From the IMG/VR virus record IMGVR_UViG_3300042337_000195, positions 1-37,944 of that record: a stretch of DNA of 37,944 bases; one strand, 5' to 3'. Within the stretch, counting starts at the first letter, position 1; every line of letters begins with the position of its first letter. The position numbers were made by a program, and so were the translations under genes. The notes beneath the pieces are model-generated. The model was given only the letters and a program-made list of their open reading frames with translations. It made no database searches and was not told the DNA's origin. Below are positions 1,298-28,708 of this stretch, in pieces. The DNA is from a virus.

Positions 1298-4200
1298 CTG
1301 CCCGCCAAGAATCGGTTCGCCTGCTTGACCCGCACAATCTCCTCGGCGGTGACGACAGGGTCGACAGCGCCGTTCACGGTGATCTGATCGCCCGCAGCCT
1401 GCGCCTGCGCCGCTGCCAGATCACGCAACGCTGCCAACAGTTCGGCCTGGCCCTTGTCGCTACCGAGCGACGCGGTCGGCTGCATCAACTGCGCCGTCGG
1501 ACCAGCCGGCAACACAGAGCCCGCAGCGCCGAACGTCACCAGCTCCGGCCCCTCCTCGCCCACCAAAGCGTTCTGACCTGCGGGGAACCGGCCACCCTTC
1601 GCGAACGGCGTGTAGATGTTGCCGTCGCGTCCACCGACCGCAGGGACGGGTTGGAGGCGTCCGTCAATCCCGCCTGCCACCAAACCAGCAAACCGATCGG
1701 CGCCGTCCTTCACTGCGTCGCCGAAAGCTCCGCCAGCGTTGACAGCGAACTCGATCCCCACCCGCATGATCGGCGCCAACCGCCCAATGTCGAAGAACAG
1801 GGCTGCGGCCTCGGAGCGAGCCTCGCTGTCGTCGATCCCGACCGGGAGCGTGGTGTCCTTGGCCTCTTCCTGCTCGCGCCAGATGCGGAGCTGCTCAGTC
1901 GTCGGCACAGTGTTCACATCAGCAGGGACGAGGACGGGGTCGCCTTCCTCGTTGAGCCGCCAGATACCGATCGCTTGCGCCGCAGGGTTCGAGTCGGCGG
2001 TCGCCGGGATGAACACCGGGTTGCCTTGCTCGTTCAACCGCCACTCGCCCACCGCTGCGATACCGGGGGCGGTGTCGCCGTACACCGCTACCTCGACCGG
2101 CGTCTCGAGCAGCCGACGCACCTCCTCATAGTCACCCTTCAGGAGAGCGTCAGAAATCCTGACCTGAACCTCGGGCGACAGTTGGTCCAAGCCCGTCAAC
2201 AGTTCGATCGTCGTCGTCAGGGCGAACAGCTCAGCCTCGCTGATACTGATCTTCACCGCAGTCTCAACCTGCGGCTTCGCGATACCGAGCAGCTCGTAGT
2301 ACGACTCCAGTTCGGCTTCGGTCAGGTTGAGCCCTTCGACAGTGCGGGCGAACTGTTCGCGCATCTGCTCTGCGAATGTGATCGCCTTCTGCGGCTCAGT
2401 CGACGCCAACTCCGACAACGTGTCCTTGTACGCGTCACCCAACCCCAACACCGCGTCCAACGCATCCAGAGTCGCTTCGGAATAGCCGCCCGTCGCAGCG
2501 ATCAGCGGGTCGTACACCCTCGGCAGGTCGGTGATCTTGCCGACCGCCTCATCCAACTCCGGCACACCCTTCGGCGTGAAATCGATGTCGACAGGGTTCG
2601 TCTTGGAGAAGTTCTTCAGCGTCGTCGCCGCACCCTCAAGGTCGCCCGCTTCGATCTGGGCGATGACCGACGTCGCGACCTCGGGCGGGATCTTGCCCTC
2701 CAACAGCGACAGGTAGGCGTTGAGCTTGAACCGGGACGACTCGATCCCGCTGAGCTTGATCGCTGTTTCGATCTGCTCCGGTGCCAACCCGGCAGCCTCG
2801 ACATACTGCGTGATCGCCTCTTCGGACAGCCCCGCCTGCCGCAACTGCTCGACCAGTTCGGCCCTGAACAGTCCGGCCTGGCCGCGAACCTCATCCATCG
2901 TCGCGCCCGTCTTGAGCATCGCAGTCAGATAGTCCGTCGACGCCGCACCCAACGCCCGCAGATCGGCGATCGCGTCCATCTGGCTCGGCCGCAACTCGCC
3001 CAAAGCGATCTTCGTCAAGTCGATCGACTTCGGCAGACGGCGAGCCGACCTGTCAAGATCCCTGAACGCCGACCCAAGATCAACCGCAGCGTCCAACTGC
3101 GAACCCAGCCCAGATGCCGACGACAGCGACTTGTTGAACGCATCAGCACCAGCCGACGCCGCATCCATCGCGATACCAAGATCAGACACCGCCGGATCAG
3201 CAGCAGATGCAGCGTCCGCCAACCGCTCAAGCGTCTTGGTCGCCTCGTCCGACGATTCCTCGGCCTTGTCCGCTTCCTTCGGGATCAAACCCAACTGCTC
3301 ACGCAACCCGCGCAACGCCTTACCGGCACCAACTGCAGCACCCAACAGATCATCAGCGTTCGTCGACCGCTCAATCGACTCGCCGAACGCCTCAGCACGC
3401 TTCGCCCCAACATCGAACTGCAGGTTCGACAACTTCTGCACCGACGACAACTTCGTCAGCGTCGCCTTGAGCGCGTCGGCCGCTTCCTTCGCGTCGTCAA
3501 CCTCGTTGCCGAACTCGTCAACCGATCCGGTCGACCCGTCAGCAGCGTCGCCCGTGCCCTCAATCGCACCGTTCGCCCTAGCAACAGCTGCGCCAACTCC
3601 ACGACCAAGATCACCCGTCTCGAACTCGGCCTGCTTCGCCTGAACCAGGTCAAGGATCGTCCCGTAGTCATCCCACGCTTGGCTGTTTCGATTGATCCCC
3701 GAACGTTCCTGCTCGAGCTGATCTTCCAACTCCTGCAACGCACCAACGCCGCTCGCAGCGGTGTCGTTGATGACCCGTTCGATGTTGCGGAAACTGACCT
3801 CTGTGCCGTTCGCGAGTTCGGCGTCGCCGCGTAGACCGTCCTCGATCAACTGCCTTGCCAAAGTAAACGGGTTCGCTGACAGCTTCTCGGTGTTGGCTGC
3901 TGCAAAGAAATCGGCGAGCGCCGGGGCCGAGCTGCTCAGATTGGCTTGCAACTCACCCATCGCGACGTTGAGTCGTTCGGTGTTGCCTGTGATGTCGTTG
4001 ATGACGCCCGATGCCACCTCAGTCAAACCGAACGCAACGGCAAGCGGGATGCCACCCTTGAGCGTGGTCGACAAGACACGTCCGGCGGCGCCAAGGTCGC
4101 GCATCGCGCCGACCGCTTTGATCGCACCGCCGGCCAGCAGCGACAAGCCACCAACGGCGATCGTCGCAGCGGTACCAACACCAGCAACCTGACCGATCGC

Positions 4201-5043
4201 AGTCTGCGTGCCCTGCGGCAGAGCGTTGAACGCCCCCGCCACATCCGACAGCGAGCCGACCAACGTCTGGAACGTCGGCAGCAACGCCTCACCGATCGAC
4301 GCCTTCGTGTTCTCAAACTCGGCGGCAAGGATGCGCTGCTGGTTAGCGAGCCCGTCCGACGTGCGACCGAAATCCCCTTGGGCGTCCGATGTCTGCTTCA
4401 GGATCTGCGCCTGCGCCGCCAGGACACGCTGCTGCTGAGTCAACGACCCGGTGCCGTTGTAGATCCCCATCGACAGGGCTTCAGCCTTCAGCGTCGCATC
4501 ATCCAACAGGACGCCGTACTGGCGGATCGGCTCCGACTCGCCCCGCAACGCCGCACCGATCGCAGTGATCGCCTCGTCCGTTGTCGTGTTTGAGAACGAC
4601 GCCAGGTCGCCGGCGAGCTGTGTCAGCTCAATAGAAAAATCGGCAAGCCCTTGGCCCGAGAGGCCCGCGGACTTGCCGAACACAGCAAATGAAGCGCCCG
4701 CATCAATAGCGGCGCGTTCTGAAAGACCAGCCGCCGTAGCGGCACCCTGAGCGAACTGCTCGAGCGCCGCGGCACCCTCGGTGCCAAGCACGACGTTCGC
4801 TTTGTTCTGCGACTCACTGAGGTCGCCCGCAGCCTGAGCCAACTTGTAGAGCCCCGCTGCGGCGACACCGCCAGCGACGAGGGTGGTCGCGCCGAACGAC
4901 ACCATCTGCCCGGAGAGCTGCTGCAGGCGGTCGTCGGTCTTGACGAGGTTCTTCTCGGCCGCGGCGCCGACCTTGTTGAACTCCTGCTGCGCCGCGCGTC
5001 CGTCCGCGGTAATAAGGATCTGCAGCTTCTCGGTGAGCGCCAC
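1294..5043 (-). CDS. Tape measure protein
   Basis: 1249 residues, the longest gene, lying after the tail chaperone as in all siphophages. Tape measure proteins run inside the tail tube and set its length. It starts with GTG at 5043, preceded by AGAGGGG six bases upstream. The N-terminal 200 residues carry the PhageMin-type pattern (coiled helices with QQLSGQM and FSNTTTDEAITAIGAALRGE). Hydrophobic Ala/Gly-rich segments follow near residues 55-75 and 290-320. The middle consists of long helical repeats. About residues 1010-1070 contain short repeats of the form W-R-L-N-E-x-G-x-P-V. The C-terminus has a Gly-rich FAKGGRFPAG motif common near tape-measure C-termini. Tail length would be set by this length; about 1250 residues suggests a tail of the order of 180-190 nm by the usual 1.5 angstrom per residue rule. 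Confidence 0.95.
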   Translation of the reverse strand: MALTEKLQILITADGRAAQQEFNKVGAAAEKNLVKTDDRLQQLSGQMVSFGATTLVAGGVAAAGLYKLAQAAGDLSESQNKANVVLGTEGAAALEQFAQGAATAAGLSERAAIDAGASFAVFGKSAGLSGQGLADFSIELTQLAGDLASFSNTTTDEAITAIGAALRGESEPIRQYGVLLDDATLKAEALSMGIYNGTGSLTQQQRVLAAQAQILKQTSDAQGDFGRTSDGLANQQRILAAEFENTKASIGEALLPTFQTLVGSLSDVAGAFNALPQGTQTAIGQVAGVGTAATIAVGGLSLLAGGAIKAVGAMRDLGAAGRVLSTTLKGGIPLAVAFGLTEVASGVINDITGNTERLNVAMGELQANLSSSAPALADFFAAANTEKLSANPFTLARQLIEDGLRGDAELANGTEVSFRNIERVINDTAASGVGALQELEDQLEQERSGINRNSQAWDDYGTILDLVQAKQAEFETGDLGRGVGAAVARANGAIEGTGDAADGSTGSVDEFGNEVDDAKEAADALKATLTKLSSVQKLSNLQFDVGAKRAEAFGESIERSTNADDLLGAAVGAGKALRGLREQLGLIPKEADKAEESSDEATKTLERLADAASAADPAVSDLGIAMDAASAGADAFNKSLSSASGLGSQLDAAVDLGSAFRDLDRSARRLPKSIDLTKIALGELRPSQMDAIADLRALGAASTDYLTAMLKTGATMDEVRGQAGLFRAELVEQLRQAGLSEEAITQYVEAAGLAPEQIETAIKLSGIESSRFKLNAYLSLLEGKIPPEVATSVIAQIEAGDLEGAATTLKNFSKTNPVDIDFTPKGVPELDEAVGKITDLPRVYDPLIAATGGYSEATLDALDAVLGLGDAYKDTLSELASTEPQKAITFAEQMREQFARTVEGLNLTEAELESYYELLGIAKPQVETAVKISISEAELFALTTTIELLTGLDQLSPEVQVRISDALLKGDYEEVRRLLETPVEVAVYGDTAPGIAAVGEWRLNEQGNPVFIPATADSNPAAQAIGIWRLNEEGDPVLVPADVNTVPTTEQLRIWREQEEAKDTTLPVGIDDSEARSEAAALFFDIGRLAPIMRVGIEFAVNAGGAFGDAVKDGADRFAGLVAGGIDGRLQPVPAVGGRDGNIYTPFAKGGRFPAGQNALVGEEGPELVTFGAAGSVLPAGPTAQLMQPTASLGSDKGQAELLAALRDLAAAQAQAAGDQITVNGAVDPVVTAEEIVRVKQANRFLAGR

Positions 5044-5482: not shown

Positions 5483-5884
5483 TCAGCCGACGCGGGTGAC
5501 GGACGAGGAAGCGGCCCAAGAGCCGGACACCTCGACAGCGCCACCGACGGTGCCGTTGGTGGTGATGTCGAACGTCGCCGTCCCGTACCAGTACTTGGTC
5601 GCGGTGTCGGTCGTCTCGTACAGGTAGAACTTGCGGGCTTCGCCGTCGGTCGCGTTGTAGAGCTCGCCGTCGGTGTCGTGGAACCCACCGAAGTCACCCG
5701 ATGCGTCCCTGAGGCCCGCGATGTAGGTCTTGGTGGTGTCACCGAACGCGGTGACCTCAGTGCGGTCCGTGGCCTGGCTGATGCTCCAGCTGTTCAGGTT
5801 CGCGATCGGCTTCGCGTTGCCGTTGGCACCGGAACTGGTGTCGGCGTACAGCCGGCCCTTACGCCCGGAAATGGGGGTAGCCAT
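5483..5884 (-). CDS. Major tail tube protein
   Basis: 133 residues starting MATPISGRKGRLY. This start and the WSISQATDRTEVTAFGDTTK segment are typical of the small tail tube proteins of actinobacterial siphophages, which stack as hexameric rings to form the tail tube. An ATG immediately upstream (5887) is also in frame, but AGGAG is six bases from the second ATG and only three from the first, so the second is preferred. It follows the connector genes and precedes the chaperone. It is probably one of the most abundant virion proteins and a plausible target of the glycosyltransferases encoded beside it (inference). Confidence 0.85.
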   Translation of the reverse strand: MATPISGRKGRLYADTSSGANGNAKPIANLNSWSISQATDRTEVTAFGDTTKTYIAGLRDASGDFGGFHDTDGELYNATDGEARKFYLYETTDTATKYWYGTATFDITTNGTVGGAVEVSGSWAASSSVTRVG

Positions 5885-5928
5885 CATGTGCTCCTAATGA
5901 GTTTCGGGCGTCACGCCCTGCTTGTTGG

Positions 5929-6942
5929 TCAGACGCCGAGCAGTGACAGCAGCCGCTTGGCATTCACGTCGAACGTGCGATCAGCGACCGCAGCTCGAGC
6001 GTTCTCAGCGGTCTCATGCCGCTTGTCGGGATTCGCGATCGCCCACCGGATCAGGTCGCCCAACTCGTCAGGCGTCTCAAAGATCGGGAGCATCGGAAAC
6101 AGTTCGTCGCCCTCGGGGCGAGACTGGCGGGCAAACCAAGTACCACACGCCGCCAACTCCACCTCGCGTGGACCCATCGCCCAACCCTCCAACAGGTCGT
6201 CGCGTTGGGCTTCGGTGCGATACAAGTTGAAGGATGTACGCGACCCTCGGTACAGGTCCGGTGTGCGTTCACCCGGCATGCAGTCCTCAAGGTCATGCAC
6301 AACGAACTTGGCGAGGTCGTCGGGGACGTGCCGCCAGTTACCAGCCAAACCCAAGTCGATGCCCGACCAGTCGACCTGGCGCATGAACTCGACACGACCA
6401 GGGAACCCCGTACCGACAAACACGCAGTCGGCGTCGAAGTCCGACGCACCGGGGTAGTGGAGGTCGGGGTCGTAGCAGTGCGGCAAGTAGATCGTGTTCG
6501 GGTTCGCTGCGAGGAACTGGTCGATGTTCGTCGGGTCGTTCAACACGACAGCGTCGACACCGTCAGCCTGCTCAAGCTGCCGCTCATCCTCATACGGCGA
6601 TTCGGTCATCCACATGACGACCTTGTGTCCGCGTGCCCGCATGATCTCAGCGAGCAGAGCGTGGATGAAGAACCCTGAGATGATGACGACCAGATCCGGC
6701 CACCAGTCGTAACACGCCTGCTTCAGACCGGCAGCAGCGAGGTGGATCGCCTCGTCCTCCTGCAACGCCTTCGTGAACTCGCCAGCCTCGTCACGCAGAT
6801 GCGCTCGGGCGAAGAAATTGAGCCGGTCGTGCAGGTTGTATTCGGCAACGTCGAGCCCGACGTCACGCAAACCTCGACAGACGCCTCTGTGCACATCGCT
6901 GACGGAGTATTCCGGCCCTGGGTGGACGACGAGTGCCCTCAT
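5929..6942 (-). CDS. CgeB-like glycosyltransferase (GT-B fold)
   Basis: 337 residues. The start ATG at 6942 overlaps the TGA of the connector gene upstream (ATGA); an open frame extends further up but has no support. N-terminal Rossmann-like half: MRALVVHPGPEYSVSDVHRG, DLVVIISGFFIH, then VVMWMTESPY. C-terminal half: CVFVGTGFPGRVEFM, TSFNLYRTE and EVELAACGTWFA, the pattern of the CgeB / glycosyl transferases group 1 C-terminal domain that binds the sugar nucleotide. It would transfer a sugar to an unknown acceptor. It stands alone between the neck gene and the tail tube gene, so virion protein decoration is the leading idea; modification of host glycans is the alternative. Confidence 0.8.
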   Translation of the reverse strand: MRALVVHPGPEYSVSDVHRGVCRGLRDVGLDVAEYNLHDRLNFFARAHLRDEAGEFTKALQEDEAIHLAAAGLKQACYDWWPDLVVIISGFFIHALLAEIMRARGHKVVMWMTESPYEDERQLEQADGVDAVVLNDPTNIDQFLAANPNTIYLPHCYDPDLHYPGASDFDADCVFVGTGFPGRVEFMRQVDWSGIDLGLAGNWRHVPDDLAKFVVHDLEDCMPGERTPDLYRGSRTSFNLYRTEAQRDDLLEGWAMGPREVELAACGTWFARQSRPEGDELFPMLPIFETPDELGDLIRWAIANPDKRHETAENARAAVADRTFDVNAKRLLSLLGV

Positions 6943-7559
6943 GGCCCCAGTTCTTTGATCAACCCGAACACCTGCACGCGGCGCATTGTCAGCGGCGCCG
7001 CCTTGTCGCCACGCTTGATGGCTTTCGACCATGTGTTCTTCGGTGACGTGCCGGGGTGACGGACGTAGGGTCGGACGTTGCCGCCGACGTTCAGCATCGG
7101 CTTACGGCGCCGCCCGCCACGGTTGTTGCGGTTACCTCGCGCACTCGACGCCAGGGCGCCGATGTCGTAGCCGTCCAGGTTGCCGCCCTGACCGGCCATC
7201 ACGGAGAACAGCGTTAGTGCTTGCCCCTGACGGCGAGTCAGACCAGGCACGATCAGGTGCGGCTTCGCGCCACGCTCAAGCGTCGCCCAGATGCCCGCAG
7301 GCCGGGGCCGCATCAACGCCTCAAAGTTGGCGCCGCTCCCGCTCAGTTCGTAACCCACGCCGATCTTGGTGCCGCCCTTACGGCGACCCCAGCGCGACAT
7401 GATGAGGTCGCCGCCTGAGTCCTTGCTGCCCTCGGCAAGTGCCGACGCTTTGTAAACGTCGGCCATTTGCTTCACACCCTTTTCGGTGTTGGAAGCGATG
7501 CTCGCCCCGCAGCCGACCATCTTCTTGGCGAATTCATCGACGCTGTTCGAGGTGCCCAT
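6939..7559 (-). CDS. Neck / head-tail joining protein (HK97 gp10-like)
   Basis: 206 residues. Start ATG at 7559 overlaps the TGA of the preceding gene (TGATG). The first helix (SVDEFAKKMVGCGASIASNTEKGVKQMA) and the following basic, Gly-rich body (GRRKGGTKIGVGYE, then ARGNRNNRGGRRRKP) fit the HK97 gp10 / minor-capsid neck family of siphophages, which bridges head-tail adaptor and tail terminator. It is longer than the 120-150 residues usual for that family, because of the Arg/Gly/Asn-rich insert near residue 150. Assignment rests on gene order and general pattern. Confidence 0.55.
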   Translation of the reverse strand: MGTSNSVDEFAKKMVGCGASIASNTEKGVKQMADVYKASALAEGSKDSGGDLIMSRWGRRKGGTKIGVGYELSGSGANFEALMRPRPAGIWATLERGAKPHLIVPGLTRRQGQALTLFSVMAGQGGNLDGYDIGALASSARGNRNNRGGRRRKPMLNVGGNVRPYVRHPGTSPKNTWSKAIKRGDKAAPLTMRRVQVFGLIKELGP

Positions 7560-7948
7560 CAGGTCCACACAGCGACAGTGATGACAGCGCCGTAGTAGAC
7601 GACGTCGCCCCACTCGATCGGCCCATAACTACCCACCGACGACACTGACAGCGACACGTCGTCGGCGTCGACACGATCGTTGATCGCAGCTACCACCGAC
7701 TGGGCGCCCGTCTCGTCGAGCAGTTCGTCCAACACCTCGAGCTGCGACACATGCGACCGCGACACCGCTACCAGCACTCGGGCCGTGGTGGTGCGGCCAC
7801 CGCCGAGGATCGACTGTTCGATGTCAAACCCTGCGACGACAGCCGCCGGCACCTGAATCGAGTCCTCGGGATACATGTACCGGTTCACGCCAGGCACATC
7901 GACCAGGGCGTCGAAGATCGCCGTGCGGATCACACGGTTCGTCGCCAC
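7559..7948 (-). CDS. Tail terminator-like protein
   Basis: 129 residues, GTG start at 7948 overlapping the TAG of the head-tail adaptor gene (TAGTG). The layout is helix, VPGVNRYMYPEDSIQVPAAVVAGF, then strands with VLVAVSRSHVSQLEVLDELL and a final VITVAVWT strand. It resembles the gpU-like tail terminator proteins, which cap the tail tube once its length is reached and join it to the head. It could instead be the head-tail stopper; the two are hard to separate by eye, and gene order here (adaptor, this gene, gp10-like gene) is compatible with either. Confidence 0.6.
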   Translation of the reverse strand: MATNRVIRTAIFDALVDVPGVNRYMYPEDSIQVPAAVVAGFDIEQSILGGGRTTTARVLVAVSRSHVSQLEVLDELLDETGAQSVVAAINDRVDADDVSLSVSSVGSYGPIEWGDVVYYGAVITVAVWT

Positions 7949-8589
7949 TAGCCGAGCCCCACATGCGCCGGATGCACCAGCGGCGACAACATGCGGCGGG
8001 CAACCGGCGGCATCTGCGACGGCACACGGAACACACCGAACTCGGACTGACCGGCGACACCCAGCGGGGCGTCCTGCAACTTGGCGACCTCAGCGATGAG
8101 GATGCGGGCAGCCTGCTTCACCTCGACCGGGACGGCGGGCCAGCCCCACACCCCGGTGACCTGGATCAGATACTCGCGTCCCGACGGCACCGCATACGGG
8201 AACGTTGTCCCGTTCAACAGGTCGATCTCGGTGTACGGCTGCGAGTAGGCACCGCGTGACGCTGCGTTGACGGGGCACAACTGGTACGTCGACGCAGACA
8301 GGGTCGTCTCGTAGACGCCGTCGCCGTCGTCGTCAGTCTTGAGCGTCGTGATGGAGACGAGGTCGTTGAACGTACCCAGCTCCAGCTCGTTGACGTCGTC
8401 AACCTCGAACACCCGTGCAACCGGGACCGACACGGTGCCGTCACGGTAGAAGTGTCGTCCGCAGTGCTGGTCGATCATGCGTGACACCGCGGTCACGACA
8501 TCGTCGAGGATGCCGGAACCGTCGGGGTACTGGCGTCCGATGTACGCGGAGGCTTCCTGCGCCGTGAGGTAGCCGTCGGTGATCGTCAC
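7948..8589 (-). CDS. Head-tail connector (adaptor) protein, gp6/gp15-like
   Basis: 213 residues with a GTG start at 8589 overlapping the upstream TGA (GTGA). The N-terminus MTITDGYLTAQEASAYIG, the helix DDVVTAVSRMIDQHCGRHF with the conserved C-x-R ending, and the later TGVWGWPAVPVEVKQAARILIAE are characteristic of siphophage head-tail adaptor proteins that dock onto the portal. The acidic DDDGDGVYET loop probably forms a turn. Normally this gene follows the capsid gene directly; here five glycan-cassette and membrane genes intervene. Confidence 0.85.
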   Translation of the reverse strand: MTITDGYLTAQEASAYIGRQYPDGSGILDDVVTAVSRMIDQHCGRHFYRDGTVSVPVARVFEVDDVNELELGTFNDLVSITTLKTDDDGDGVYETTLSASTYQLCPVNAASRGAYSQPYTEIDLLNGTTFPYAVPSGREYLIQVTGVWGWPAVPVEVKQAARILIAEVAKLQDAPLGVAGQSEFGVFRVPSQMPPVARRMLSPLVHPAHVGLG

Positions 8590-9143
8590 TCGGTGTCCTC
8601 CGGTTGGCTCAGGTGGGGCCAGTCACCCAGCCGATACGTCCATGTGATCTTGGGTATGCAGAGGAACTTGGCGCCCGCAGTCACAGCCCGCTGCCACAAG
8701 TCGTGGTCCTCGTTATGCACATCGCGGTACCCGCCGAGGTGATCCCACAGCTCCGTCTTGACCGCAGCGGCGGAGGCGATCCAGTTGATGTCGTGGATGC
8801 GTTCCATCGGCATCACAACCTGGAGCCCGTCGACACCGATCCAGCCGGGAGGGTCAACACGGGGCCAGGTGTAGACGATGTCGAAATCGCCGTTCAGGTA
8901 CTCGCCGATCGTCGCGAAGTGGTTGGAGTCGAACAGGTCGTCGTCGTCACACCGAAACACCCACGGCGTGTCAACGTTGGCGACCAGCTCGTTGATGATC
9001 TTGGCGGGGCCGACACGATCGAAATCGGTCTTGACGTCCCAGCCGTAGACACGTTCGGTCTGACGGGCGATCGACTGGCCGAGCTCGTGGAGCATCGGGC
9101 GTCGTTCCTCAACGGTCGCAGTGACGATCGTCAGCGGGATCAC
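8586..9143 (-). CDS. Glycosyltransferase family 2-like protein (GT-A fold)
   Basis: 185 residues. GTG start at 9143 overlaps the TGA of the membrane protein gene (GTGA). It opens with the GT-A strand MIPLTIVTATVEERRP. The nucleotide-sugar/metal motif is DDDD at residues 66-69, and a C-terminal acidic motif NEDHDLW lies at 144-150, followed by an IPKITWTYR strand. This is a compact but apparently complete GT2-type catalytic domain; no membrane segment is present. It would use a metal-bound nucleotide sugar. It lies in a run with a membrane protein, a methyltransferase and another glycosyltransferase, between capsid and connector genes. Confidence 0.8.
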   Translation of the reverse strand: MIPLTIVTATVEERRPMLHELGQSIARQTERVYGWDVKTDFDRVGPAKIINELVANVDTPWVFRCDDDDLFDSNHFATIGEYLNGDFDIVYTWPRVDPPGWIGVDGLQVVMPMERIHDINWIASAAAVKTELWDHLGGYRDVHNEDHDLWQRAVTAGAKFLCIPKITWTYRLGDWPHLSQPEDTE

Positions 9144-9958
9144 TGGTACTCCGGTTGGAGCCACCACACGGCCGACGCAGCGCACGCCAGGGCGAGCCAG
9201 GGCACCGGTATCACCTGCACCGCAGCGAACGCCAGAGCAGGCCCAGCAGCGGTGTGGATCAACCTGTAGGTGTCGGTCGCGACGAACAGTTGGGCGTACG
9301 CCACAACCGTCACGGCGACGACTCGCATGGACGGGTTGACGAACGCTGCGAGACAGGCACCCCACTGGACGACCATGCGGGGGTCACGCCACTTGCCGGC
9401 GTGATGCTCCATTGCCGAGCGGATCGGATGGTCGTGGACCCGTTTCAGCACCGGGTTCTGCGTGACCTCGTCAAGCGTCGGTCGACGCCACAACCCAACC
9501 ACCAAAGGGACCACAACACCGACCAGCAAGATCGGATGCCACGCCCACAACGCAGCCCACACCGGCGACGATTCCTTGATCGACGCAGCGATCAGAACCA
9601 GCACCACCGCCAACGGCCACCAGCCCGCCTCCAACGCCGCCACAGCGACGATCGACACGGCCATGGCGGGCAGATCCACGCCGACGGGACGGACAACGTG
9701 CGGTCCCCACACGCCCGCCAGGGCCAACAGCAGAACCGGGGCGGCGAGCATCTGCCGCCACACCAGGCCAGCCTCGAACCCCCACCACACCATGCCCAAC
9801 GCAGCGGTCGGCCACGACGCCCACCACACGATCGACCACAGCTTCACATCAGCGCCACAGACCGCCGGGAGCAGCACCCGCAGGTTAAACGGCTTCGCCA
9901 CCGGCTTGCCGTGACCGGCGAGGATGTAGCGGGCGGCGTCAGGACCGAACCTACCCAC
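9140..9958 (-). CDS. Polytopic membrane protein of the glycan cassette, possibly GT-C-like
   Basis: 272 residues with about seven or eight hydrophobic segments (roughly residues 38-60, 70-85, 95-115, 117-130, 135-155, 205-220, 222-235, 240-265), so it is an integral membrane protein. The loop IKESSPVWAALWAW resembles the K-E-x-x-P motifs of GT-C type membrane glycosyltransferases that use polyprenyl-phosphate sugars, but the protein is shorter than complete GT-C enzymes. Flanked by a methyltransferase and a GT2 enzyme with 8- and 4-base overlaps, it probably acts with them, either transferring sugars or moving lipid-linked sugar across the membrane. Function is inferred. Confidence 0.6.
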   Translation of the reverse strand: MGRFGPDAARYILAGHGKPVAKPFNLRVLLPAVCGADVKLWSIVWWASWPTAALGMVWWGFEAGLVWRQMLAAPVLLLALAGVWGPHVVRPVGVDLPAMAVSIVAVAALEAGWWPLAVVLVLIAASIKESSPVWAALWAWHPILLVGVVVPLVVGLWRRPTLDEVTQNPVLKRVHDHPIRSAMEHHAGKWRDPRMVVQWGACLAAFVNPSMRVVAVTVVAYAQLFVATDTYRLIHTAAGPALAFAAVQVIPVPWLALACAASAVWWLQPEYQ

Positions 9959-10535
9959 GACGCATCACCTCGAGGGTGTACGTCGCAGGGTCGTGCTTGT
10001 CGCCGGACGGACGGTAGAACTCGCGGTCGGTGACTACGACGAACCCGTCGGCCTCAGCGAGCCCACGCAACGTCGACTGCTCCACCCAATCGGCGTCGTC
10101 AAACACCAACGTGCAGGACTCGTCGAGTAGTGGTGCGGCGAGCTGCCAGAAGTCTGCGACAGCCTCAGCAGTGTGATCGGCGTCGTAGAAACAGAATCCG
10201 AACGTGCCGTCCAACTGAGGCAGCGCCGTCCGCATATCCTCGTTGACCGCAGAGAACAACCGAGGGTCACCGATGTACGGAGCGACGTTCTCCAAGAACG
10301 TGCCGAACAACGTGCCACCCGACCAGGCATCACCCTGATGGTGATCGACAGTCACCAGCTCGCAGCCAGCGGGCAGCGAAGTGAGCAGCACTGCGGTCGA
10401 CAAGCCGAGGTAATGACCAACCTCGAGCGCCCGAGACGACGTGGTCGCCGAAGCAACCTCGCCCAACCTCACACACTCAGCGACCGACAACGCACCAGGG
10501 ATCCGCCGGCGCAGATTCTCAGCGAAGTCACGCAT
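9951..10535 (-). CDS. Class I SAM-dependent methyltransferase (Methyltransf_24 type)
   Basis: 194 residues. SAM-binding motif I is EVGHYLGLST at residues 38-47 and motif II is TVDHH near 62-66. YDADHT at 117-122 and FDDADW at 145-150 match the small-molecule / sugar O-methyltransferases of the Methyltransf_24 group. It overlaps the glycosyltransferase upstream by 8 bases and the membrane protein downstream by 8 bases. The likely substrate is a sugar made or attached by the neighbouring glycosyltransferases (inference); DNA is unlikely because no target recognition region or DPPY/PCQ motif is present. Confidence 0.8.
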   Translation of the reverse strand: MRDFAENLRRRIPGALSVAECVRLGEVASATTSSRALEVGHYLGLSTAVLLTSLPAGCELVTVDHHQGDAWSGGTLFGTFLENVAPYIGDPRLFSAVNEDMRTALPQLDGTFGFCFYDADHTAEAVADFWQLAAPLLDESCTLVFDDADWVEQSTLRGLAEADGFVVVTDREFYRPSGDKHDPATYTLEVMRRG

Positions 10536-11334
10536 GACTGTTCTCGTCCGTCAGACGAGTCTCGAGCGTCGCTGGCGTGTCCTTCGTGGACGACGGCCAC
10601 CACACCTTCGGACCCTTGTGATGCCCGACATGGGCGGTCGTGTCGACGTACACGTTGTGTCCGGCTTCGGCGGCACGCAGGCAGAACGACACGTCCTCAC
10701 CCAACGCCCACTCCAAACCGGACTCGCCGGTGCGGACATCGAACCCGAACCAGCAGTTCTTCGACCGGCCACGCTGCTCAAACATGTCCTGCAGCACGTC
10801 ACGATGAACGAGGAGACAACCGGTGCCGGTCGCAGCGAGCTGCACCACCTGATCGGGCTGCCAATCCAACATCACCTGCGTGATCGAATCTTCGTCAGGG
10901 ATGAACAGCGTCGGCACCGGGCCGTCAGCCGTCACGATCACACAGAGAGCGCCGAGCATCTTGACGTCCATCTGGATCGCACGGGCGACCAGCCGGTGCA
11001 ACAGGTCGGGCTCGAAAACCATGTCCGTGTCGCAGAACCAGAGCCAGGAACAAGCTTGGTACGACTCGTTATGCAGGAACTCGTCGACCAGCCGGTTACG
11101 GGCCTTCGCCAAGTTCGCTGTCGCCTCAACAGCGACGTAGTTGTGGAGCAGGCACAGGTCGAGCGGGTTCGGGGACTCCGGCTCGCCGGCCGCTTCCCAC
11201 ACCTGCAACGCCCGCACCCTGTCCCACGCCTGCAACTCGACAAGCGAACGCAGAAACCGGGTCGAGATGTCGTGCCCCGTCGAGGGGAACGCCATCAACA
11301 CCTGGCCGGGCAGATCATCTTCTAGTGACGGCAT
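10528..11334 (-). CDS. Glycosyltransferase, GT-A / GT2-like
   Basis: 268 residues. The DxD-type motif DTDM is at residues 102-105 in the context SWLWFCDTDMVF, and GEDVSFCLRAAEAG at 212-225 followed by AHVGHHK matches the C-terminal acceptor-side motif of GT2-like enzymes that carry an HVGH-type ending. No membrane anchor. It is the first gene after the capsid gene, behind a hairpin at 11375-11416, and begins the glycan cassette. It probably transfers the first sugar onto a virion protein or a cell-wall component; the substrate cannot be told from sequence. Confidence 0.8.
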   Translation of the reverse strand: MPSLEDDLPGQVLMAFPSTGHDISTRFLRSLVELQAWDRVRALQVWEAAGEPESPNPLDLCLLHNYVAVEATANLAKARNRLVDEFLHNESYQACSWLWFCDTDMVFEPDLLHRLVARAIQMDVKMLGALCVIVTADGPVPTLFIPDEDSITQVMLDWQPDQVVQLAATGTGCLLVHRDVLQDMFEQRGRSKNCWFGFDVRTGESGLEWALGEDVSFCLRAAEAGHNVYVDTTAHVGHHKGPKVWWPSSTKDTPATLETRLTDENSHA

Positions 11335-11430: not shown

Positions 11431-12786
11431 TCAGCTCAAGACCTGCTTGAAGCCGGTGCCCTGAAGGACGCACGAAGCGACCGGGTACCGACCCGAGGTG
11501 AACGCCGAGTAGCCGAACAGCACCATGTTCACCGACAGCGACGCACCGAGAACTTCCTCGAAACGCAGACCCATCGGAGCGCCCGCATCCTCCATCAGGA
11601 GGTTGTCAGCGCGACGGGTGATGATGATCCGGTCCTCGTCGGTGCTCGCGCCGAGAACGATCGGCACGTTCGCGTCGGAGATGACCGGCACACCGGCGAT
11701 GTCGCCCACGGAGTTGAGCCCCGCAGCGACACCATCGCCGACCTGGTTCTGCCCGTTGTACCCGTTGATGTTCACCAGCGGGCGGCCAGCAGTGTCGGAC
11801 TGTGCGCACAGCCAGGCCCAACGGCGCGGATGCATGACGATGAGGTCCGCAGCAGCCAGGCGGCTGGCGTTGACCTTGCCGATCCCGTTGTGGATCGCGG
11901 TCACCAGCGAAGCGCCAGTCGTGCCGGTCCACGCAGCGGTCTGCACCGACGTCGTGTTGATGACGCCGAAGTGAGTGCCCGCAGTGCCGGCACCGTTCAG
12001 GGCGTCGGAGTCGAGCTTGGTGGCGTAGGCAGACACGAGGTCGGCCATCAGGATCTCACCGATCCCGGTGCCACGGTCGATCGACTGGCGGGACACAACC
12101 TGCTGGCCGGCGTAGGTACGCACCGGCACGGTCAGGTCAGTCTCGGCGTAGGTCGTGTTGCTGACCGCAGTGTTCTGCGTCTCCTGAGCAGCGACCGACA
12201 CGCCAGTGTTGCCACGCGGCACGGTGATGGTCATGCCGTCACCGGGCAGCGGCAGCGAGCTGACCGCGTCCAGGAACGGGCGACCGGCACGCAGGATCGG
12301 AGCGAACTGCGAGGTCAGATACTGGGGAACAACAAGGCCACCGAAGTTGCCCGTGGTCGACCGGTACTCAGCCTTGACCTCGGCCTGTGAACGCTGGATG
12401 CGGTCACGGGCCTCGTAGTCCGAAGCGAACTCGGCACGGAACGCATCCGCGATGAAGTCGTGGTTGCCGTCGGCGCGGTAGGTGCGCTCCTCGGACTTGA
12501 CCTGCACAGCGGTGGTGGTCACGCCGAGCGCCTTGCGGGTGGCGTCCGCAGCGGACCGGGACTCCTCCAGCTCAGCCAGATCGGCCTCGCGCTGACGCAG
12601 CTCGGCGATGCGCTCGTCGATGCCCTTCAGGGCGGAACGCTTCTCGTCGAACTCGGCCGTCTCGGCGTCGGTCAGCTCGGAACGGCCCTCAGTCTCGACG
12701 GATGCGAGGATGGCCTGCACTGCTTCGTCTGCCGCTTCGCGCTCGTTGAGAGCGGCGGCGATCAGGGAGCGGATCTGCTCCAACAT
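11431..12786 (-). CDS. Major capsid protein, HK97 family, with N-terminal delta (scaffold) domain
   Basis: 451 residues. Residues 1-90 are a strongly charged coiled coil (LIAAALNEREAADEAVQ to LAELEESR), the cleavable delta domain that scaffolds the prohead. The body follows from about residue 125: LVVPQYLTSQFAPILR, then VPRGNTGVSVAAQETQ and VNASRLAAADLIVMHPRRW, ending with IIITRRADNLLMEDAG and MGLRFEEVLGASLSVNMVLFGYSAF. This matches the HK97 fold E-loop, P-domain and A-domain pattern. A strong GGAGGTT lies six bases before the ATG, one of the best ribosome sites in the genome, as expected for an abundant protein. The protease gene is just upstream. The 127 bases before the start (12787-12913) hold only this leader. 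Confidence 0.93.
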   Translation of the reverse strand: MLEQIRSLIAAALNEREAADEAVQAILASVETEGRSELTDAETAEFDEKRSALKGIDERIAELRQREADLAELEESRSAADATRKALGVTTTAVQVKSEERTYRADGNHDFIADAFRAEFASDYEARDRIQRSQAEVKAEYRSTTGNFGGLVVPQYLTSQFAPILRAGRPFLDAVSSLPLPGDGMTITVPRGNTGVSVAAQETQNTAVSNTTYAETDLTVPVRTYAGQQVVSRQSIDRGTGIGEILMADLVSAYATKLDSDALNGAGTAGTHFGVINTTSVQTAAWTGTTGASLVTAIHNGIGKVNASRLAAADLIVMHPRRWAWLCAQSDTAGRPLVNINGYNGQNQVGDGVAAGLNSVGDIAGVPVISDANVPIVLGASTDEDRIIITRRADNLLMEDAGAPMGLRFEEVLGASLSVNMVLFGYSAFTSGRYPVASCVLQGTGFKQVLS

Positions 12787-18040: not shown

Positions 18041-18236
18041 GGCAACGAGCCTTGAGTTCGGCGATGTCAGCCTCATGCTCACCCAACGTCGCGGTGATCG
18101 CTGTGTAGGTGCCGGCGCCGTTCGCCACCATGAAGTCGCGCAGCGACTTCATCTCGTCGTACAGCTCGGACATCTGGTGGATCTGGTTTCGGTAACGCTG
18201 CTCGAGATCGGTCAACGGATGCTCCTGGTTCGTCAT
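18033..18236 (-). CDS. Small coiled-coil protein
   Basis: 67 residues starting MTNQEHPLTDLEQRY; the ATG overlaps the TAA of the primase-helicase gene (TAATG). It has heptad-like stretches at residues 9-34 (DLEQRYRNQIHQMSELYDEM) and 50-64 (TLGEHEADIAELKARC), so it probably forms a short coiled coil. Unknown function; it is translated with the helicase. Confidence 0.65.
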   Translation of the reverse strand: MTNQEHPLTDLEQRYRNQIHQMSELYDEMKSLRDFMVANGAGTYTAITATLGEHEADIAELKARCRG

Positions 18237-20332
18237 TAGAAGTCGACGTGTGAGTAGTCGGGGGTGGGGGTTTGGACCGTGGTCCCCCTTAGGGGGGACC
18301 ACTGGTCCCCACTTACCCCGGTCCCGTGGTCCCCGGTGGTCCCCGGAGTGGTCCCCGCCTGTGTTTCAGGGGTTTTCGGGGTGTCGTCGGAAGTGGTCCC
18401 CGCCTTGTTTCCGAGATGAGTGGTCCCCGCAGTGGTCCCCGAGTTATCCACGGGGTTATCCACAAGGATGTCCACAGTGTGTTCGGCTGCGTTTCGGCGG
18501 AACCTGAGAGCGTCACCGAGGACCGTGTTGCGTGCTTCGATGCCCTGTGCGACGAGGATCGTCCTCGCCGCCCTGCGGGACATCTCAAGGGGCACATCGA
18601 GGTCGTCGAGCTGTTTGGCGAGTGCGACCGTGCCGGTGGCGTAGGGCTTATTGTCTGCGCCGCCCCTGGTCCCGTTGAACACCATGCGGCCGTGGCCGTC
18701 CTCTGCGATGTCGATGACGGTCGATTCGGGGTACCAGCCCATGCGGCGGTGTGTGGCTGCGACGGCGACTCCGGTGTCGGTGCGCGTCAGCTTCATCACG
18801 ATGTCGACGTCGTCGTTCTTCGCTGATGAGCCTCGCTGGCCTTTCTCAGCATCCTTGCCGGCGTGGTCGAGGCGTACCCAGCCGATGCCGAGCTGCTTCA
18901 GTCTCATGCCGGTGTGGCGGTAGAAGGCTTGGAAGGTGCCTGCCTCGTTTTCGTCGCCTTCGGTGGCGCGTCCGGTGGTGTCGATGACGACGAATTGGGC
19001 GTTGCAGGCTTGTGCGGCGAAGGTGAGGGCGAGCCCGCCTGGGTCGGTGTCGAGCGGCGGCAGAGATGGCAGTAGTGCGTAGTGGAGGTGTGTGAGGTCG
19101 TCGCCTGGCCCGTAGCCGAACTCAACTAAGCGGTCGTGGAGGTCGTCGGGGGTCATCTCGTAGTCGACGTACAGCACATCAACGGGATCGCCTGACGGCT
19201 TGTCGAGGAAGGGTTTGCCGGTGGCGAGAGCTGCGACGGCGGCGAGGACGAGGTAGCTTTTGCCGGTTTTGGCGCCTGCGTACAGGGCGTGGGCTCGGCC
19301 GGCGGCGAAGAGTGGTTCGCAGATCCAGTCGGTGGCGGTGTGGTCGGTTGCCCAGAAGTCGGGCCAGTTGAGGATGAACTTGGCGAGCGGGTTGAACGGC
19401 TCGGATGTGCCGTCAGACGCTCCCTGTGGCGCTGTGAGCGTTTCTACGGTGTTCGGCTCGGCCCTGAACCCGTATTCGGCCAACGTGCGTGCTGCGCTGC
19501 TGTGGTCGCCGTGGTGGCGTGTCGCTGCGATGTAGCCGAGTTTGGTGTACGACTCTTCGGGTTCGAGGCCGTGGTGGCGCATGGAGCTGGTGAACACTTT
19601 GAGGTTGTCGGCTGGGGACCATCCGGTGGTGGCTGATGCGCCTTCCCTGATGTCTTTGCCGGGTCGTGTCCAGTACCGTTCGCCGTTGCGGTCGGTGTGG
19701 TGGAGGGTCCAGCCGTCGGCCTGGAGGATGGTGGCCCAGTCGACTTGGGCGGCGTAGAGGTCGCCGGGTCGGTCGCTGTCGTTGACGACGCGGAGCCCGC
19801 GGTCGATGGGGGTGGGGTCGGGGGCGCGTTCGGCGACGAGGTTGATGAGCCATTGGGGGGCGTCGACAGGCTCGTCGGGTTGGCCGGCGTCGTACTCGTA
19901 CTGTTTCCCGTTGGGGTGGATGCTGGGTGGTGCGACGACGAACCCGCCGTCGCCCCTAACATCCAAACCGGGGCCGAGTCGGGTGCTGGCATTGTTGCGG
20001 ATGACGGTGCCGTCGGTGGGGTACTTGTAATAGAAGTGGAGCCCGCCGCTGCCGGTGATGACGGTGAGAGTGTCGGGGAGCGGGGCGTGGTTCTTCTCGA
20101 GGTCGCGGTACGAGTCATAGTCGTCGACATCAAGCACCCATAGTCCGGTGGCGGGGCCGGTGGCGATGCCGACGCCGTGGTCGGGATGTTCGGTCCACCA
20201 CTGGGCGACGAGGTCGGGGTCGTTGGTGGCTCGTTCCTGCCATCGGCTGATGCCTTCGGGGAACTTCTTGCCGGCGGGGATGGGGATGACTCGCCATCCG
20301 CGTTGGGCGTACTCGAGCGGCGTGTCGGTCAA
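18236..20332 (-). CDS. Primase-polymerase / helicase fusion (AEP Prim-Pol plus RepA-like AAA ATPase)
   Basis: 698 residues. TTG start at 20332 overlaps the upstream TGA (TTGA). N-terminal Prim-Pol domain (residues 5-165): AQRGWRVIPI, IATGPATGLWVLDVDDYDS with the metal-binding DVDD at 68-71, then GSGGLHFYYKYP and PGLDVRGDGGFVVAPPS. The middle (195-295) is a helical accessory region. The helicase domain (about 315-560) has Walker A GAKTGKS at 353-359, YVDYEM at 388-393, Walker B FVVID at 447-451 and RLDHAGKD at 487-494, like RepA/DnaB-type hexameric helicases. It would prime and unwind DNA to start phage replication. The last 75 residues are a Thr/Gly-rich tail (repeated GTT) dictated by DNA iterons embedded in the gene. 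Confidence 0.9.
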   Translation of the reverse strand: MTDTPLEYAQRGWRVIPIPAGKKFPEGISRWQERATNDPDLVAQWWTEHPDHGVGIATGPATGLWVLDVDDYDSYRDLEKNHAPLPDTLTVITGSGGLHFYYKYPTDGTVIRNNASTRLGPGLDVRGDGGFVVAPPSIHPNGKQYEYDAGQPDEPVDAPQWLINLVAERAPDPTPIDRGLRVVNDSDRPGDLYAAQVDWATILQADGWTLHHTDRNGERYWTRPGKDIREGASATTGWSPADNLKVFTSSMRHHGLEPEESYTKLGYIAATRHHGDHSSAARTLAEYGFRAEPNTVETLTAPQGASDGTSEPFNPLAKFILNWPDFWATDHTATDWICEPLFAAGRAHALYAGAKTGKSYLVLAAVAALATGKPFLDKPSGDPVDVLYVDYEMTPDDLHDRLVEFGYGPGDDLTHLHYALLPSLPPLDTDPGGLALTFAAQACNAQFVVIDTTGRATEGDENEAGTFQAFYRHTGMRLKQLGIGWVRLDHAGKDAEKGQRGSSAKNDDVDIVMKLTRTDTGVAVAATHRRMGWYPESTVIDIAEDGHGRMVFNGTRGGADNKPYATGTVALAKQLDDLDVPLEMSRRAARTILVAQGIEARNTVLGDALRFRRNAAEHTVDILVDNPVDNSGTTAGTTHLGNKAGTTSDDTPKTPETQAGTTPGTTGDHGTGVSGDQWSPLRGTTVQTPTPDYSHVDF
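18279..18476. other. Candidate replication origin: iterons plus DnaA-box-like sites inside the primase-helicase gene
   Basis: GTGGTCCCC occurs seven times in direct orientation (starts 18279, 18326, 18336, 18348, 18393, 18420, 18432). There is one inverted copy at 18294-18302 and one CTGGTCCCC variant at 18302. Immediately beyond lie TTATCCACG (18444-18452), TTATCCACA (18456-18464) and TGTCCACA (18469-18476); the middle one is the bacterial DnaA-box consensus. The first and inverted copies form a 10-bp stem with a TTAG loop (18279-18302). The array of repeats beside DnaA boxes, in the 3' end of a replication initiator gene, is the layout of iteron origins. Function is inferred. Confidence 0.65.
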
Positions 20333-20754
20333 CGGTCGTCCCTCTTGTGTGCCACGACGAGGCAGCGGTGCATGAGCCGGATGGAGCGTGCGGTGAACAC
20401 TTCGGCGCCCTTGCCGAGATTGCACTCTTCGCAGAACGGGGCGAGGTTGAGGTCGTCCTCGATAAGTTCGTCGTAGACGCCGTACTGCTTGGCGAGGTCG
20501 ACGGGGATGATGTGGTCGACCTGGAGCATGACGGCGGGTGGTGCTGCGCCGCAGGACATGCATGTGTGGCTGAATCGGTCGAGGACTCGGGCTCGGACTT
20601 TGGGTTTGATGCCCGGTCGGCTGGTGACGCTTCGGGTGGCAACGCCGGCTTCGGCTTTTGGCACCCATCTGATCCAGCTGTCGCAGTCGGTGCAGCGTTC
20701 GGCGATGTGCGGGCCTTCGACCCTGGTGGTGGTCAGTGGGTGGGTGCAGCTCAC
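20329..20754 (-). CDS. HNH endonuclease
   Basis: 141 residues, GTG start at 20754 overlapping the WhiB gene stop (GTGA). An N-terminal CTDC pair (C21, C24) is followed by the HNH domain: CMSCG (C65, C68), QVDHIIPVD (D80, H81), LNLAPFCEECN (N103, C108, C111, N112). The complete set of catalytic and zinc residues is present. It lies directly before the primase-helicase and overlaps it by four bases. It could be a free-standing homing nuclease or a replication/recombination nuclease; the sequence does not distinguish these. Confidence 0.8.
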   Translation of the reverse strand: MSCTHPLTTTRVEGPHIAERCTDCDSWIRWVPKAEAGVATRSVTSRPGIKPKVRARVLDRFSHTCMSCGAAPPAVMLQVDHIIPVDLAKQYGVYDELIEDDLNLAPFCEECNLGKGAEVFTARSIRLMHRCLVVAHKRDDR

Positions 20755-21592: not shown

Positions 21593-22689
21593 GGCAGGGT
21601 GACGCTGCGGGGGTCGGCCATCAGTTCGCGGAACACGGCCAACGGAGCGCCGGTGAGGGTGTACGGCGCCGGCCCGGAGTTCAACGCCGTGTCGAAGTAG
21701 GCGGAGCCGACGCAGTCGACGGTGAGCAGCGACTCATACACCTCGCGCAGTTCGTTGCCGGCGGTGGTGTCGTTGCCGCGGTTGCCGAGTTCGCCGATCG
21801 CCATCGGGATGTTGCGGTCGTTGCACCATGCGACGGCGCGGGTCCATGACGCGTTGCGGGTGGGTGCCGGTCCTGATTCGGTGGACTGGTAGATGTCGAA
21901 GCCGTAGGCGTCGAAGATGTCGTCGACCCACCAGTCGTCGGGGTTGCGACCGCTGCCGGTGGACCAGGTGTATCCCATGAGGCAGGGGAGTAGCGCGATG
22001 TTGGTGGTGCCTTTGGCGCCGAGCACCTGGCGGATGCGTGACTGCATTGCGCGCCATGCGGGTGCGCCGCCGGGGTCGTCGGGGCTGTTGGTGCCGCCTC
22101 CACCCTCGGGCTCGTGATGCATCGTCATCCAGACGGGGCCGCCGAGTGCGTCGAGGCGGTTGAACAGGTTCTGCAACGCTGCGTCGATGTTGCCGTTGGC
22201 GACGTTCTGCCATGAGGTGCCGGGCTTCATCGACAGCCACGGCACCCTGCCGTTGTCGATCGCTTCCTTGCACTTCGCGACAGCGTCTGCACTTTGCGAC
22301 ATCTGATAGAAGAGGCGCCACACACCCATCGGTCGGCCGGCAGCCGCCTCATGCTCAAGGACACGGCTGCTGCTGTTGCCGCCGCCGCAGCCCCACCTGA
22401 TGGTGCCGGGGCGGGTGTCGCCGGGGAAGCGTGGCTGCCAGGTGTCGGCCACCTCGAGGTCGCGGACCATGTTGAACGTGTCGGCGAGGTCGTCGTGGGC
22501 GACGGCTGACTGTTGGGCGTGTGCGGTCTTGGCGGTGAAGAGTGCGCTGGCGCCGGATGCGAGGGCGTCGGCGGCGGATCGCATGGTGGCGATCTGCTTG
22601 TCGACGCTGACGTAGAGGGAGCCGTTGACTTCGATGATGTGGTCGATGGCGTTGTTGCCGTCGTCGGCGAGCTGGTCAGGTGTGGTCAT
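21589..22689 (-). CDS. Glycoside hydrolase family 26-like protein
   Basis: 366 residues from an ATG at 22689 that overlaps the methyltransferase stop (ATGA). Residues 1-75 are helical and probably structural (VNGSLYVSVDKQIATMRSAA). Residues 90-366 look like a GH26-type TIM barrel: RWGCGGGNSSS, LSMKPGTSW, MTMHHEPEG with candidate acid/base E193 or E195, WWVDDIFDAYGFDIYQ, and IPMAIGELGNRG with candidate nucleophile E300. GH26 enzymes cleave beta-mannan and related chains. No signal peptide is visible. Such domains are normally part of phage tails, yet here the gene sits between a DNA methyltransferase and a resolvase. It may be a displaced virion depolymerase. Confidence 0.75.
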   Translation of the reverse strand: MTTPDQLADDGNNAIDHIIEVNGSLYVSVDKQIATMRSAADALASGASALFTAKTAHAQQSAVAHDDLADTFNMVRDLEVADTWQPRFPGDTRPGTIRWGCGGGNSSSRVLEHEAAAGRPMGVWRLFYQMSQSADAVAKCKEAIDNGRVPWLSMKPGTSWQNVANGNIDAALQNLFNRLDALGGPVWMTMHHEPEGGGGTNSPDDPGGAPAWRAMQSRIRQVLGAKGTTNIALLPCLMGYTWSTGSGRNPDDWWVDDIFDAYGFDIYQSTESGPAPTRNASWTRAVAWCNDRNIPMAIGELGNRGNDTTAGNELREVYESLLTVDCVGSAYFDTALNSGPAPYTLTGAPLAVFRELMADPRSVTLP

Positions 22690-24464: not shown

Positions 24465-24619
24465 TTGGTGTCCTTGACGCCGGTGCAGCGGCAATCAACG
24501 AGCGTGGTGGTGCGGCGTGGTGTGCCGGGTCGTCGGATGCGGCGCCTGCCGGTGCCGCCGCAGAGTGGGCACACCCGAACCACAGGCGTGGTGTCTGTGG
24601 TTCGGGTGGTATCGCCCAT
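24461..24619 (-). CDS. Small zinc-ribbon protein
   Basis: 52 residues; ATG at 24619 overlaps the preceding TGA (TGATG), and its TGA overlaps the methyltransferase GTG. CPLCGGTGRRR and a second DCRC pair form a probable zinc-binding module resembling half of the DnaJ central zinc finger. The rest is Arg/Thr-rich. Probable nucleic-acid or protein binding; no specific role is recognised. Confidence 0.65.
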   Translation of the reverse strand: MGDTTRTTDTTPVVRVCPLCGGTGRRRIRRPGTPRRTTTLVDCRCTGVKDTK

Positions 24620-28664: not shown

Positions 28665-28665
28665 T

Positions 28666-28706
28666 CCCGGTTTGCAGACACGAACCGGGTTCACTACAAA
28701 ACCGGG
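28666..28706. promoter_or_regulatory. Repeated CCCGGTT sites at the start of the integrase gene
   Basis: CCCGGTT at 28666-28672 is followed by two opposite copies, AACCGGG at 28683-28689 and AAACCGGG at 28699-28706, the last just before the integrase ATG. Three short sites in this place could be integrase arm-type sites, excisionase sites or an operator. No attP core could be identified without a host attB. Confidence 0.4.
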
Positions 28707-28708
28707 CC

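Follow-up and report, generated by a model that had tools for sequence, protein, structure and literature searches.

A putative virion-glycosylation cassette between the capsid and tail tube genes of an uncultivated, apparently actinobacterial phage

Glycosylation of phage virions was established only recently, and in a few mycobacteriophages. Phage enzymes are reported to glycosylate the capsid and the tail tube in Che8, Corndog and Myrna (Freeman et al. 2023, as quoted in PMC12363180 and PMC11600133), and an insertion of 8-10 genes between the capsid and connector genes, rich in glycosyltransferases (GTs) and methyltransferases, has been published for the cluster J mycobacteriophages (PMC3706429). 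Here we describe a related cassette in the IMG/VR virus record IMGVR_UViG_3300042337_000195, a complete-looking phage sequence of metagenomic origin analysed over all its 37,944 bases (hereafter the window). An earlier note on this DNA had placed two GT-A glycosyltransferases, a methyltransferase, a membrane protein and a CgeB-like glycosyltransferase between the capsid and tail tube genes, and Pfam, PHROG and predicted structures confirm all five, which we call GT1, GT2, MT, MP and the CgeB-like enzyme. We consider it likely, from gene content and conserved neighbourhood, that they form a virion-glycosylation cassette in which GT1 acts on the capsid and the CgeB-like enzyme on the tail tube. 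Systems of this kind are already known, since both glyco-islands and virion glycosylation have precedents in actinobacteriophages.

The closest precedent is cluster J (Omega, Minerva), where the island sits at the corresponding position, immediately downstream of a related HK97 capsid gene (33% identity) and ahead of the connector genes, and has a similar content of GTs, methyltransferases and a UDP-glucose dehydrogenase-like enzyme. The post-capsid order in Minerva is GT, kinase, methyltransferase, GT, GT, GalT and, further on, UDP-glucose dehydrogenase. The GT1 profile matches Minerva gp14, which also comes first after the capsid gene (E 6.3e-10), and the GT2 profile matches gp17 (5.5e-15), both being remote relationships for which single-sequence BLAST is weak. 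Minerva differs in having neither a GT-C membrane protein nor a GT-B enzyme beside the tail tube gene, in possessing a kinase, and in its longer, different tube protein. With the virion-glycosylating phages Che8, Corndog and Myrna the cassette shares phage-encoded GTs, and with Che8 also a methyltransferase domain of the Methyltransf_24/TylF type. In Che8, gp108 fuses a GT2-type domain to Methyltransf_24; the GTs of this phage (gp108-110) are encoded at the extreme right of its genome, include no CgeB-like or GT-C enzyme, and are only remotely similar in sequence. The Minerva island (PMC3706429) and gp108 of Che8, a phage with demonstrated virion glycosylation (PMC12363180), substantiate the actinobacteriophage precedent that the earlier note had invoked.

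All named cassette genes lie on the minus strand, in the order terminase, portal, protease, capsid, GT1, MT, MP, GT2, adaptor, terminator, a connector-position gene, the CgeB-like gene, tail tube, a small gene where a tail-assembly chaperone is expected (the chaperone-position gene) and tape measure; the genes outside the cassette were named by homology, length and position. About 96 bases follow the capsid gene and about 41 precede the tube gene, and the successive genes from GT1 to the CgeB-like gene overlap by 8, 8, 4, 4, 1, 1 and 4 bases, in line with the 1-8 bases noted previously. Of the connector genes said to be interleaved, PHROG recognises the adaptor and the terminator, while the third is called by position only, with no family match in Pfam or PHROG. 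The cassette genes are under purifying selection (ratio of nonsynonymous to synonymous substitution rates, dN/dS, of 0.02-0.31 in the pairs compared) and the arrangement, sought in other phages as had been suggested, recurs in dozens of contigs with variable middle genes; together, selection and recurrence argue that it did not arise by chance.

The evidence on acceptors comes from scans of IMG/VR, each made with one family as the sole query, so that its neighbour was not selected for, and each taken as the best 80 loci, which share ancestry and are not independent. A capsid gene lies at most 1.5 kb upstream in all 68 GT1-fetched loci with room for it, usually at 90-115 bases, and reciprocally GT1 follows the capsid gene in 19 of the 19 capsid-fetched loci with room downstream. 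GT1 keeps the DxD (DTDM here) and GEDxSF motifs, with a dN/dS of 0.06-0.21. Across capsid types, distances between GT1 proteins correlate with those between capsids at 0.94, and still at 0.92 after removing the effect of MP, compared with 0.66 for the adjacent pair GT1-MP. One pair of loci illustrates this: between L007 and L049 the capsids are 22% and the GT1 proteins 29% identical, against 80% for MP, so that the capsid swap carried GT1 along and not MP. In distant relatives (L083, L088, L096, L097, L106 and L112) GT1 is contained in a longer open frame of about 460-540 amino acids, where it is probably fused to another domain.

The CgeB-like gene is tied to the tail tube gene in the same manner. 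Among the loci fetched with CgeB, 76 of 78 have the tube gene within 150 bp downstream; of the 78 tube-fetched loci, 71 have the CgeB-like gene as their direct upstream neighbour and 76 have it no more than 700 bp upstream. This adjacency holds although the gene before the CgeB-like gene varies, the distance from it to the terminator gene ranging from 0 to 1287 bases, and some phages (L060, L066 and L068) keep the CgeB-like gene without GT1 and MP. Distances between tube proteins track those between CgeB-like proteins (partial r of 0.67 given the chaperone-position gene), whereas for the adjacent chaperone-position gene the value is -0.03 once the CgeB-like protein is removed. The predicted AlphaFold2 (AF2) model of the CgeB-like enzyme (predicted local distance difference test, pLDDT, of 83.3) has a full two-domain GT-B fold of the GT4 type and superposes on BshA with Z 24.6 and a root-mean-square deviation (rmsd) of 3.1 over 309 aligned residues; the Glyco_trans_1_2 match covers its C-terminal half, and Glu260 and Glu262 are among the residues conserved in the alignment. 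In Bacillus, CgeB is a spore-coat glycosyltransferase whose gene stands beside that of its partner CgeA. The phage family resembles it in the Glyco_trans_1_2 C-terminal domain and in adjoining the gene of a surface protein, and differs in that its partner is a tail tube; the likeness rests on the shared Pfam domain. A pair of CgeB-like and tube genes appears to be absent from the known systems compared. Among 50,697 GenBank phages the tube protein has no relative at E 0.01 and the CgeB-like enzyme has two, both remote, and a search for possible hosts, made in a sample of 396 genomes of the phylum to which the Thermomonospora genome mentioned below belongs, found no match to the CgeB family. 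The C-terminal tails of the tube proteins are rich in serine and threonine throughout; the one CgeB-negative tube in the comparison, whose locus is perhaps too short, gives no usable control.

Between these two pairs the cargo is variable. A Pfam survey of 70 proteins, most of them encoded between the capsid and adaptor genes of relatives, with some GT1 fusions and a few others included, returned GT2-type transferases, several methyltransferase families, NDP-sugar epimerases, GDP-mannose dehydratase, hexapeptide-repeat (acetyltransferase-like) transferases, 2-oxoglutarate-Fe oxygenases and one UDP-glucose dehydrogenase. The slot of MT, which we propose to be a sugar O-methyltransferase, holds other enzymes or nothing in relatives, and that of GT2 holds another GT2-type protein or a methyltransferase. 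In the close relative L035, MT and MP give way to a second GT and a UDP-glucose/GDP-mannose dehydrogenase (3144-4382), and open frames of equal size occupy this position in L055 (dehydrogenase-size frame at 1649-2887). The leanest islands (L043, L253 and L254) consist of GT1 and MP alone before the adaptor gene. An open frame resembling an HNH endonuclease, identified by eye, lies between GT1 and MP in L010 (about 7350-7886), where other relatives have a methyltransferase; in a few relatives, L008 and L011, MP comes directly after the terminase gene and not after GT1, still in the head region.

MP has no Pfam or PHROG match and was resolved through its predicted structure. The AF2 model is confident (pLDDT 89.4; predicted template modelling score, pTM, 0.89), and when aligned by VIA-align with the 1000 chains ranked highest by Foldseek, its 35 best rows are all GT-C enzymes (Z 7.5-15.5), followed by an unrelated row at Z 3.1. 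These matches, which include AglB, OST, Pmt4, ArnT, AftD, PglB, ALG9, EmbB, PimE and ALG6, align 227-256 of the 272 residues with an rmsd of 3.5-4.9. Helical models may reach Z 13 with this tool through arrangement alone; the assignment is retained because of the clean gap in Z to unrelated rows and of the Asp/Tyr motif described below. Foldseek by itself gives no significant E-value, so that the class assignment depends on VIA-align plus the motif. Sequence searches of the GT1, CgeB and MP profiles against solved structures gave nothing convincing, and in particular no detectable match of MP to a solved GT-C enzyme. On this basis MP very probably has a GT-C fold.

In GT-CA enzymes the first juxtamembrane helix bears at its tip an Asp that is essential (PMC12041299); in PimE this residue is D58, supported by Y62 (PMC12041525). 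In MP, D7 (at the start of helix 6-15), R10 and Y11 are invariant, D7 and Y11 being kept across phage and bacterial homologues, and the i+4 spacing of D7 and Y11 is that of D58 and Y62. The structural alignment of the two proteins starts from residue 1 of MP and residue 52 of PimE; D7 would then fall on D58, provided that no gap intervenes. We propose from the model that Asp7 and Tyr11 are catalytic. A GT-C fold with a catalytic Asp implies a lipid-linked sugar donor, and the suggestion that the cassette uses a lipid-carried sugar gains support from the model in this way. MP shares its fold with the GT-CA transferases PimE, ArnT, PglB/AglB, AftD and EmbB over nearly the whole model, and differs from them by its short length of 272 residues and by lacking transmembrane helix 1 (TM1). 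The seven-helix core of GT-CA enzymes is therefore incomplete in MP, and we describe MP as a GT-C-fold, TM1-less protein and not as a standard GT-CA member.

The lack of TM1 separates the phage proteins from their bacterial homologues. We found five of the latter, the first in Thermomonospora echinospora and then four more in genomes of the same order (a scan of genome contigs gave one bacterial MP locus), and all five have a hydrophobic helix immediately ahead of the Asp, with a Kyte-Doolittle maximum of 1.8-2.3. None of the 83 phage homologues encodes TM1, and in 42 of them an upstream stop leaves fewer than 17 residues. Among GenBank phages MP has one relative, in GX15bay (35%); beyond it, no TM1-less GT-C enzyme was found in the known systems compared. 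The positive-inside rule favours neither orientation of the phage proteins, with about 7 lysines and arginines summed over the mapped loops on each side. UbiA, DprE1 and DprE2 are the makers of decaprenyl-phosphate pentofuranose, and at two of the bacterial loci (L039 and L121) the MP homologue lies near genes read as their homologues, the DprE1-like gene of L121 not having been called in the gene pass; these neighbours are hints as to the donor of MP. In L118 (8214-9104), L119 (8306-9196) and L039 (9917-10807) the homologue is found between oxidoreductase-like and carbamoyltransferase-like genes, with a TylF-like methyltransferase nearby (all named by eye), possibly an undescribed actinobacterial glycan cluster.

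The scheme that we infer for catalytic steps, acceptors, donors and late expression builds on the computed identities, folds, pairing, variable cargo and TM1 loss. The cassette would be expressed late. GT1 would add a sugar, drawn from a nucleotide donor, to freshly synthesised capsid protein, and the tail-tube protein would receive one from the CgeB-like GT-B enzyme, each of these outer enzymes being inherited together with the gene of its substrate. The middle genes (MT and GT2, or their substitutes in relatives) may extend or cap the sugar, so that different middle genes would give different glycans on the particles of different phages. MP would use a host-supplied sugar on a polyprenyl-phosphate carrier. 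Its target at the membrane would most likely be a host envelope glycan or a shared lipid-linked intermediate, and not the assembled particle directly. The acceptor had been left open between virion protein and host envelope: the near-obligate pairing of GT1 with the capsid and of the CgeB-like enzyme with the tube points to those two virion proteins; MP may act on either the virion or the envelope. If the reading holds, capsid and tube are directly testable acceptors, and virion glycosylation by dedicated pairs of enzyme and substrate genes would be widespread in uncultivated, probably actinobacterial phages. MP in turn raises the questions of GT-C function without TM1, of orientation, and of the phage use of host lipid-linked sugars.

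Several observations weigh against virion glycosylation as the function of the cassette. The pairing may also arise from physical linkage, the relatives sharing descent, and within one capsid type the tie of GT1 to the capsid is not closer than its tie to MP (r of 0.82 against 0.85, partial 0.36 against 0.51). Coevolution of GT1 with the capsid within one type thus finds no support beyond linkage, and linkage alone may explain much of the co-inheritance. Bipper and prophiGD43A-5 have related capsids without any such island. Phages with and without GT1 cannot be told apart by their capsid C-termini, and a C-terminal serine or threonine was rejected as an acceptor mark: VLS or VLT ends most main-clade capsids, and GT1-negative capsids also have tails containing these residues. 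Finally, the characterised members of the GT-C class use lipid-linked donors and work outside the cytoplasm (PMC11127046), which by analogy fits poorly with the assembly of particles in the cytoplasm, and MP is therefore not explained by virion modification alone. The loss of TM1 may have turned the active site of MP to the cytoplasm, where lipid-linked sugars of the inner leaflet would serve to glycosylate capsid or tube, but we regard this as improbable. We know of no cytoplasmic, lipid-donor-driven route of virion glycosylation elsewhere.

The site of action of GT-C enzymes is also what gives weight to the alternative that the cassette alters the host surface, MP decorating an envelope or cell-wall glycan outside the membrane with the help of the GT-A enzymes and MT, and so blocking superinfection or preventing new particles from sticking to debris. 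The GtrABC systems of seroconverting phages provide the model, with a phage-encoded GT-C enzyme and an expected polyprenyl-phosphate sugar donor, and the UbiA/DprE1/DprE2-like neighbours of two of the five bacterial homologues agree with it, as does the tyrosine integrase of the window, which makes a lysogenic use conceivable. Yet the enzyme is short and TM1-less, the genes lie inside the virion operon and not in a conversion region, GT1 and the CgeB-like enzyme pair with capsid and tube, and some phages positive for either enzyme have no MP. Moreover, neither a flippase (GtrA) nor a polyprenyl-phosphate sugar synthase (GtrB) is recognised in the cassette by Pfam or PHROG, although GT1 or GT2 could still be the donor synthase. 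We hold host-surface modification as the function of the whole cassette to be unlikely. That the enzymes are passenger genes (morons) unconnected to the neighbouring virion proteins would account for middle genes that vary, come and go, for the empty site in Bipper and prophiGD43A-5 and for the HNH-type frame in L010. It accounts poorly for GT1 and CgeB-like genes that are almost always found next to their partners in spite of large divergence (tubes as little as 44% identical) and that are under purifying selection while the surrounding genes rearrange, which makes it very doubtful. Modification of the phage DNA as a guard against restriction, in the manner of the T4 enzymes AGT and BGT, is the least credible of all: the GT-B matches to the CgeB-like model do include AGT (Z 20.5), but this is a generic match, outscored by many GT4 enzymes; outside the cassette the window also encodes a C-5 cytosine methylase, but DNA methylase genes are common in phages. 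No hydroxymethylating enzyme was detected in the cassette or in ten other open reading frames scanned, and the pairing with capsid and tube would have no reason under this explanation.

The genes of the cassette and their structural neighbours are listed in the table. GT2 likely starts at the GTG at 9143, overlapping the MP stop, its open frame extending to 9365; the start of the CgeB-like gene is the ATG at 6942, not 7032.

Table. Genes of the putative glycosylation cassette and neighbouring structural genes (window positions)
Feature	Position	Strand	Evidence
HK97-type major capsid protein	11431..12786	-	PHROG major head protein 7.9e-49; Pfam Phage_capsid 1.6e-15
GT1, GT-A/GT2-type glycosyltransferase, first gene after capsid	10528..11334	-	Pfam Glyco_tranf_2_3 1.4e-6; DTDM motif
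MT, S-adenosylmethionine (SAM) methyltransferase, variable slot	9951..10535	-	Methyltransf_24 4.8e-15
MP, short polytopic membrane protein with predicted GT-C fold, 272 residues	9140..9958	-	predicted structure
GT2, small GT-A glycosyltransferase, variable slot	8586..9143	-	PHROG glycosyltransferase 2.4e-8
Head-tail adaptor, interleaved structural gene	7948..8589	-	PHROG head-tail adaptor 3.6e-16
Tail terminator, interleaved structural gene	7559..7948	-	PHROG tail terminator 1.2e-11
Connector-position gene, HK97 gp10-like by place only	6939..7559	-	position
CgeB-like GT-B glycosyltransferase, precedes tail tube	5929..6942	-	Glyco_trans_1_2 3e-12; predicted GT-B fold
Major tail (tube) protein	5483..5887	-	PHROG major tail protein 5.5e-10

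A nucleotide search against GenBank phages gave no match. The closest cultured capsids, at 33-35% identity, are those of mycobacteriophages, from which the host is apparently actinobacterial. Because an exact repeat of 127 bases occupies both ends of the record (1-127 and 37818-37944), it probably represents a closed circle, or else a complete, permuted genome that was cut so as to leave an assembly overlap. A tyrosine integrase encoded at 28661-29554 on the plus strand (Phage_integrase, 2.3e-21), opposite to the structural genes, makes it probable that the phage is temperate. The C-5 cytosine DNA methylase lies at 22686-24494 on the minus strand (1.7e-53), and the same strand carries, at 18236-20668, a Prim-Pol primase fused to an AAA_25 helicase-type domain.

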